This document shows positions 23,381 to 25,348 of a stretch of DNA of 64,000 nt, piece after piece. Under the pieces are notes generated by a model. It did not search any database and was not told where the DNA came from. It was given only the letters and a program-made list of their open reading frames with translations. Source of the stretch: Lachnospiraceae bacterium (GTDB taxonomy: Bacteria > Bacillota > Clostridia > Lachnospirales > Lachnospiraceae); the NCBI GenBank assembly GCA_017439675.1, contig JAFSIQ010000044.1, positions 62,001 through 126,000 of the forward strand, read 5' to 3'. Position numbers and translations under genes: made by a program. The stretch's first letter is position 1, and each line of letters starts with the position of its first letter.

Positions 23381-25348
23381 ATGGAAGTAATATTGGCAAA
23401 AACAGCATGATTTTGCTTTGGTGTAAAACGTGCAGTGGATACGGTGTATGAACAGGTGGGAAAAGGTAACATTTATACCTATGGTCCGATTATACACAAT
23501 GAGGAAGTAGTAAAAGATTTGGAATATAAGGGTGTTCGTGTAATCGAGAATGTAAAAGACATACAAGCTCTAGAAGAGGGAACGGTGGTTATTCGTTCGC
23601 ATGGAGTCGAACGAAGTATATATGATGTAATTCAAAAAAAGGGGTTGGAATTGGTTGATGCCACTTGCCCTTTTGTTAAGAAAATACACAATATTGTTGA
23701 TAAAGATAGTAGCGATGGTAAGACGATTATCATTGTGGGCAATCGAAACCATCCTGAAGTAATGGGAATTGTTGGTTGGTGTAATTCAGAACCGATTGTG
23801 TTAGAATCGGTTGAGGAAGCGAAGGCACTTTCCTTCGAGAAGCATCAGGAGATTAGCTTAGTTTCCCAAACGACCTTTAATCACAAGAAATTCAATTCTA
23901 TAGTTGAAATTTTCGAGAAAAAAGGTTATAATATAACCGTTTATAACACCATATGCAATGCAACAGAAGAAAGACAGAAGGAAACAGCTTCTATTGCGCA
24001 GCAGGTAGATGCGATGATTGTTATTGGTGGAAGAAACAGTTCTAACACACAAAAGCTATATGATATTAGCAAAAAAGAATGTGGAAATACTTACTATATA
24101 CAGACACTCGTTGATTTGGATTTGGCTGCTTTTGAATCCGTTGGTAGGGTAGGTATTACAGCAGGGGCATCTACCCCTAATCATATTATTAAGGAGGTTC
24201 ATGGTAGCATGGCAGAAGATTTTGGAAAAATGTTTGAGGAAAGTTTAGCTGACGAGAGTAGAATTAGCGTTGGCAAGGTGGTTAAAGGAACCGTTATTGA
24301 TGTTAAAGAGGATGAAATTATTTTGAACATCAACTACAAGGCAGATGGAGTAATTACAAAGAGTGAATACTCTACTGACATGAATATTTCGTTGAAGGAT
24401 AAGGTTCAGGTTGGTGAGACAATTGAAGCTAAGGTTGTGAAGACGAACGATGGCGATGGACAGGTGTTATTGTCTGTTAAGCGTGTGGCTGCTGAAAAAG
24501 CCAACGAGAAGCTTGAAGAGGCATTTAATAACGAAGAAGTATTAAAGGGTGTTGTAACTCAGGTATTAGATGGCGGTTTGAGTGTTACTGTTGAAGAAGC
24601 TAGAGTATTTATTCCGGCAAGTCTTGTATCTGATGTATACGAGAAGGATTTAACAAAGTATAAGGGTCAAGAAGTTGAGTTCAAGATTACAGAATTCAAT
24701 CCTCGTAAGAGAAGAATTATTGGTAACCGCAAGATGTTAATTGAGGTAGAGAAGAAGGCTGCAAAGGAAGCGTTATTTGCAAAGATTAACGTTGGTGATA
24801 CAGTGGAAGGAACTGTTAAGAACGTTACGGACTTCGGTGCATTTATTGATTTGGGTGGTGCAGACGGATTACTCCATATTTCAGAGATGTCATGGGGAAG
24901 AGTTGAGAACCCTAAGAAGTTATTCAATGTTGGTGATGCTGTTAAGGCAATCATCAAGGATATTCAGGGTGAGAAGATTGCGCTTAGTCTTAAGTTTGAG
25001 GATAGCAATCCTTGGTTGACAGCTGCTGAGAAGTATGCAGTTGACAATGTTGTTACTGGTAAGGTTGCTAGAATGACAGATTTTGGAGCATTTGTGGAGT
25101 TAGAGCCTGGTGTAGACGCTTTGTTGCACGTTTCTCAGATTGCAAAAGAGCATATTGAGAAGCCATCAAGTGTTTTATCTGTAGGACAGGAAATCGAAGC
25201 AAAGGTTGTAGATTTTAGACTAGAGGATAAGAAGATTAGTCTCAGTATGAAGGCTTTACTTCAGGATGATGTAACAGAAGAAGTTGCAGAAGCTGCGGTA
25301 GAAGAAGTTGTAGAGGAAACAGTAGAAGAAACTGCAACAGAGGAATAA
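23381..25348 (+). CDS. ispH: IspH (HMBPP reductase) - ribosomal S1 fusion, interrupted by an in-frame TGA at codon 10
   Basis: The natural start is the ATG at 23381 behind AAAGGAG: MEVILAKTA, then TGA (23408-23410), then FCFGVKRAVD. The stop replaces the conserved Gly of the GFC motif; one base change (GGA to TGA) explains it. Beyond it the frame stays open for about 645 residues. IspH residues are otherwise intact in E. coli-like numbering: Cys12, His39, His74, Cys96, His124, Glu126, Cys192 and the SxN block near 220-222. It makes isopentenyl and dimethylallyl diphosphate. From about residue 290 four S1 RNA-binding domains follow, then an acidic tail. A GTG at 23435 would omit Cys12, a 4Fe-4S ligand, and lacks a ribosome site. 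Either a real nonsense allele or a sequence error. Confidence 0.9.
23408..23410 (+). other. Premature in-frame TGA in ispH
   Basis: Codon 10 of ispH reads TGA where the family has Gly before Phe-Cys. TGA is used as a normal stop elsewhere in the window (oadB, BaiN-like gene, ruvA), so it is not a sense codon in this genome. Confidence 0.9.

Follow-up and report, generated by a model that had tools for sequence, protein, structure and literature searches.

The ispH-S1 fusion gene of a draft Lachnospiraceae MAG, interrupted by an in-frame TGA at codon 10, very probably holds two expression units in one reading frame, the first of them struck by a TGA that is not decoded and that represents an error (the more likely origin) or a very recent null allele. 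The upstream start would yield IspH and IspH-S1, whilst a promoter, a ribosome-binding site and an ATG inside the ispH part would yield free S1 (Table 1). Because the TGA lies upstream of this promoter and start, a genuine stop would cost the cell IspH and IspH-S1 and spare free S1. The most likely reading of the conservation described below is that S1 is served by a separate promoter and start, which persist in fused and unfused genes alike, whilst the activity of the internal promoter, the use of the internal start and the presence of free S1 are what we infer from sequence comparison.

Table 1. Positions of the ispH-S1 gene and of the elements within it, numbered from the first base of the window
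Feature	Position	Strand	Evidence
ispH-S1 fusion gene, broken by a stop at codon 10	23381..25348	+	NF000907, PF02401 and PF00575 matches; one in-frame TGA
In-frame TGA at invariant Gly codon	23408..23410	+	All 105 rows from relatives have Gly; no other disabling lesion in ~59 kb compared
Synonymous-constraint block 1, around internal promoter	23864..23950 (far set), 23873-23947 (near set)	+	Below the 1% shuffle level
Putative internal sigma-70-type promoter, TTGAAA-17-TATAAT	23904..23932	+	11 of 12 positions; homologous site in 105/107 family-group loci
Synonymous-constraint block 2, upstream of and over S1 start	24053..24247 (near set), 24134-24235 (far set)	+	Below the 1% level
Conserved leader element, GTAGGTATTACNGCNGGGGCNTCNACCCC	24149..24177	+	Near-invariant in family group, third codon positions fixed
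Putative internal Shine-Dalgarno sequence for S1, AAGGAGG	24191..24197	+	All 107 S1-linked family-group loci have AGGAGG
S1 reading frame from internal ATG (MAEDFGKM...)	24209..25348	+	Coincides with the separate S1 start in unfused relatives

A stop codon at an otherwise invariant glycine

The window, meaning the whole stretch of 64,000 nucleotides analysed, is part of contig C32 of the MAG of its host, a gut bacterium (1.99 Mb in 50 contigs, 70% complete), whose closest named relatives are mostly Lachnospiraceae MAGs. Profile matches place cmk upstream and a cheR gene downstream of ispH-S1. The preliminary description had identified the gene as an IspH-S1 fusion, and the part behind the TGA indeed scored above the cut-offs of NF000907 (bifunctional IspH/S1; 720.8 bits, cut-off 624) and TIGR00216 (279.5, cut-off 187.85). 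The ATG at 23381 follows AAAAGGAG and opens the translation MEVILAKTA*FCFGVKRAV, behind whose stop 645 open codons run on through IspH and S1 to the stop ending at 25348, as had been described. Cys12 of IspH is a ligand of its cluster, and its codon (23414-23416) lies behind the TGA, leaving the frame interrupted between the start and this first cluster-ligand cysteine. GTG 23435, the first listed start downstream of the TGA, lies beyond the Cys12 codon, and initiation there would lose the cysteine, in agreement with the earlier account, in which the ligand role was background knowledge.

Comparison with relatives confirmed that the TGA replaces a conserved glycine and revealed no second TGA at this codon, the homologous triplets being GGC (n = 46), GGA (n = 33), GGT (n = 21) and GGG (n = 5). 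These counts derive from 112 loci, of which six gave no row and 106 did, one row being the window's own locus, and among the 106 rows at least six pairs represent the same contig reached via two collections. Across related genomes (89 of 98 with a match), the window's own copy was the single interrupted ispH among 92 matches, and no stops were found inside ispH among the best-scoring matches listed for a wider set of 397 genomes (384 with a match). A whole-genome search also reported one TGA in the ispH frame, although this reflects the same assembly and hence gives no independent confirmation. The nearest ispH relative shared 86.4% protein identity, and no conspecific genome was found. Three genomes of the same genus (G004, G016 and G022, 86 to 95% complete) gave no ispH match, probably owing to assembly gaps.

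Sequence error or recent null allele

The TGA is probably either a consensus error of the assembly or a very recent mutation. Behind it, ispH evolves normally, with a pN/pS of 0.215 in the 14 pairs that include the window copy versus 0.228 in 91 other pairs, and with a single private replacement among columns that do not vary in the other sequences, versus 0-7 in 14 relatives; a long-dead gene is therefore very unlikely. Relaxed selection on ispH was rejected as an explanation of its raised dN/dS relative to neighbouring genes, which also appeared in pairs without the window copy and is traceable to synonymous sites that diverge little towards the 3' end of the gene.

Aligned to genes from four of the genus's other 25 genomes, 59,270 bases (47,833 in the window and 11,437 of 115,714 in the flanking contig) contained this one stop and no frameshift, as judged from non-overlapping genes of at least 120 aa with matches of at least 55% identity, any stop five residues or fewer from the end of a match being ignored. 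The many stops in a looser first scan were dropped, as they lay mostly in spurious antisense frames on the minus strand, with a few at plus-strand gene ends or in intergenic sequence. Elsewhere, in three other draft genomes (L065, L067 and L069), the ispH alignment shifts frame mid-gene, probably through indels in the draft sequence, indicating that lesions in draft ispH copies do occur.

A sequence error had been put forward from the outset as the sober alternative, and it is supported. We favour a consensus error clearly over a real allele, by judgement rather than measurement, because loss of ispH should be lethal to a cell that has no alternative route. The other origin would be a genuine nonsense mutation that arose recently in the assembled strain or in part of its population, tolerated through isoprenoid precursors from elsewhere or carried by a minority of cells; it takes the smaller share between the two origins and appears rather improbable. 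Such an allele would fit the clean remainder of the window, where errors are evidently rare, which counts mildly against an error, and it would still allow S1 to be made from its own signals. Weighing against it are the frame changes in the three draft relatives, the lack of any sign of relaxed selection, the retention of IspG and the genomic survey of isoprenoid routes, in which neither a second ispH nor HMG-CoA synthase was found.

The preliminary description had proposed a second ispH or another isoprenoid route as ways to accommodate a genuine stop, neither of which emerged from the 70%-complete MAG: ispH gave a single match in the whole MAG, and HMG-CoA synthase, the one family of the mevalonate route tested, was not detected. 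The MEP pathway, of which ispH is, the TGA aside, an ordinary gene, is represented by IspG (L112, G000:C36:273-1295); DXR was not found in the MAG, and with IspG beginning only 273 bases into its contig, the DXR gene may have fallen beyond the contig's edge. Type II IPP isomerase gave a weak partial match below cut-off, and the plasmid collection gave no match. At 70% completeness, the missing part of the genome could hold another copy of ispH, selB, a suppressor tRNA or an alternative route.

Putative expression signals for S1 within ispH

The putative promoter was scored in 142 distinct loci as a site with at most two mismatches to TTGACA/TATAAT at the homologous position. Within the family group it was present irrespective of gene arrangement, in 68/68 fused and 37/39 unfused loci with S1 next, as well as in the one locus (L091) whose contig ends before S1 (1/1). 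The two exceptions were L067, whose register slips at a frame change in the ispH alignment, and L101 (TTGATT-17-TATGAT). The family group comprises loci not marked as same order, and 75 of its 107 S1-linked members were assigned by default without a taxonomy check; among the 32 from handled genomes alone, 31 carried the promoter. In other families, it was found in 5/25 loci with S1 and 1/9 without S1 seen, as judged on 1.5-1.6 kb downstream. Of these nine, L214 runs off its contig and L222, with a reading frame of 659 codons, is probably a fused locus, leaving seven useful loci, one of which carried the promoter (1/7). Part of this promoter contrast reflects phylogeny, as the S1-less controls are more distant. 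The match of the promoter sequence alone falls within chance expectation, with three sites found versus 5.6 expected at 9 of 12 positions, so that conservation is what supports an internal promoter.

AAGGAGG is positioned eleven bases before ATG 24209, and AGGAGG recurred in the contig-cut family-group locus (1/1) and in 24/25 other-family loci with S1, compared to 0/7 alignable loci without S1 seen. Outside the family group, this contrast appears cleaner than that of the promoter. In 39 of the 107 S1-linked family-group loci, ispH and S1 are separate genes, and S1 then typically begins ATGTCAGAA just behind GAGGAGGTT or AAGGAGGTT, a stretch that at the same time codes for the C terminus of IspH.

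Synonymous constraint in the 3' third of ispH

Four-fold-site divergence among 15 loci falls toward the 3' end of ispH, with successive 40-codon bins at.58,.71,.63,.67,.33,.40 and.07, compared to.55-.64 for cmk and.44-.57 for S1 in the same loci. Constraint was assessed by comparing codon diversity in 15-codon windows with 500 shuffles that permuted it between codons for one and the same amino acid, using a near set of 22 loci (20 aligned over most of block 1 and 21 over most of block 2) and a more distant far set, in which the corresponding numbers were 49 and 52 of 58 loci. The minimum observed/expected diversity in block 1 was 0.22 in the far set (1% level 0.56) and 0.25 in the near set (1% level 0.40), whilst block 2 reached 0.10 in the near set (1% level 0.40) and 0.42 in the far set (1% level 0.56). 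The lowest values in the 500 shuffles were 0.30 (near) and 0.50 (far), above the minima of both blocks. Between 24053 and 24133, constraint was seen in the near loci (from 24053 onward) upstream of where it begins in the wider set (from 24134 onward), and this stretch is possibly a genus-specific part of the leader.

Fourteen codons were fixed for one synonym, defined as a share of at least 90% where the gene-wide share is at most 60%, and 13 of these fell in blocks 1 and 2, which together account for 30 of the 125 eligible codons (hypergeometric p 9e-9, an optimistic value given that the data used to define the blocks overlap with those tested). Were this constraint a by-product of codon preference in IspH, S1 would be made only as part of the fusion. 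That the GITAGASTP region of IspH is conserved at the protein level is compatible with such a by-product, as are the sparse occurrence of the promoter in S1-linked loci outside the family group and an 8-codon-window test in the far set, where the value of 0.55 misses the 1% level (0.49) and lies within the 5% level (0.59). We nonetheless consider codon preference an unlikely explanation, given that no shuffle was as low as either block in 15-codon windows, that the over-conserved codons cluster in the blocks, that the promoter is kept in fused and unfused loci alike and that AGGAGG is absent from all seven alignable loci without S1 seen.

The leader element upstream of S1

Within the leader element of the family group, individual synonyms are used far above their gene-wide share (in brackets): GGG 98% (20%), ACC 98% (25%), GGT 95% (30%) and GTA 92% (26%). 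The Gly GGG and Thr ACC codons flank GGGGCNTCNACCCC, and a short GGGG/CCCC hairpin within the element is suggestive only, as folding tests were negative and the Gly and Thr third positions are nearly invariant in the family group, so that covariation there is uninformative. A structured ribosomal-protein leader was considered and rejected: Rfam returned no match for the leader (the best hits, below threshold, were unrelated, and a further search found a tRNA only), and folding of the leader did not depart from that of shuffles (z -0.75, 45/200 shuffles as good). For 24 windows of 90 nt ending at 24190, folded in 30 of the 107 loci, the mean synonymous-shuffle z likewise ranged from -1.00 to 0.55. 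In E. coli, the rpsA leader mediates autoregulation by S1; the present arrangement resembles it in having a conserved sequence upstream of S1, but differs in the missing Rfam match and the negative folding tests.

Evidence against recoding of UGA

Programmed or efficient readthrough of the UGA to give full-length IspH-S1, including insertion of selenocysteine or reassignment to glycine, is so poorly favoured that we regard recoding of codon 10 as very unlikely, the intact and constrained frame behind the TGA notwithstanding. No relative examined has a stop at codon 10, whereas a programmed stop would be conserved among them. A code in which UGA means glycine would leave it unused as a stop, whereas the earlier view that TGA is an ordinary stop in neighbouring genes was borne out by 44 hand-picked plus-strand ORFs of the window, which end in TAA (n = 25), TAG (n = 10) or TGA (n = 9). 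The genome also has a prfB gene (L223, G000:C38), which reads RDSL, CTT TGA C and then DIPIKK in the +1 frame. We take CTT-TGA-C to be the familiar autoregulatory frameshift site of release factor 2, and its retention leads us to presume that UGA is a stop here; the "1 TGA" reported for prfB as a candidate second recoded gene was rejected as this ordinary arrangement. NCBI table 25 (UGA-to-Gly) is the code of Absconditabacteria/Gracilibacteria, and the present case shares with it a UGA at an expected glycine position, but concerns a single site in a window that otherwise uses UGA as a stop, with Lachnospiraceae as relatives.

A selenoprotein would call for SelB and tRNA-Sec in the genome, and searches of the 70%-complete MAG returned nothing over cut-off for either selB or tRNA-Sec. 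Within the genus, tRNA-Sec was marginally over cut-off in one of 26 genomes (G024, 47.1 versus 47). The UCA anticodon was absent among the 18 tRNA matches in the MAG, itself an incomplete tRNA set, and in its minimum-energy fold tRNA-Trp had an anticodon stem of 6 pairs, missing from the centroid, which is weak evidence against readthrough. The RNA 3' of the TGA folded no better than shuffles (z -0.83, 40/200 shuffles as good). The readthrough that had been suggested as one way out for the cell is unsupported on each of these counts, and the codon-10 TGA serves as a warning against taking single stops in draft MAGs for recoding.

Implications for S1 expression in Lachnospiraceae

Gene-internal promoters and overlapping ribosome-binding sites are known from bacterial operons. 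The present arrangement is similar in that the promoter and Shine-Dalgarno sequence of the downstream gene would lie inside the upstream coding sequence, but differs in that these signals are also retained when ispH and S1 are fused in a single frame. The preliminary description treated the ispH-S1 fusion as one unit, whereas the S1 part has, inside ispH, conserved promoter and Shine-Dalgarno sequences of its own. The gene agrees with the IspH-RPS1 fusions of NF000907 and of a 2015 study (PMC4746011) in domain order and family, scoring above the NF000907 cut-off, but differs from them in its interruption at codon 10. Topics of that study include the structure of the protein, its binding of Rho and the roles it may play, and the words "promoter", "internal" and "Shine" have 0 occurrences in the main text.

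Extended to the whole of Lachnospiraceae, we lean modestly towards the view that the ispH coding sequence doubles as an S1 promoter and a leader of ~270 nt, in which GTAGGTATTACNGCNGGGGCNTCNACCCC may control S1. Cells with the fused gene would make IspH-S1 as well as free S1, so that a broken ispH start would spare S1. The IspH-S1 "Rosetta stone" fusion is then probably not the sole S1 product, and an internal S1 module would offer a simple reason for the coexistence of fused and separate arrangements in one family. Ultimately, the leader would represent a compact conserved element, present in many gut bacteria, that is a candidate for the control of S1.
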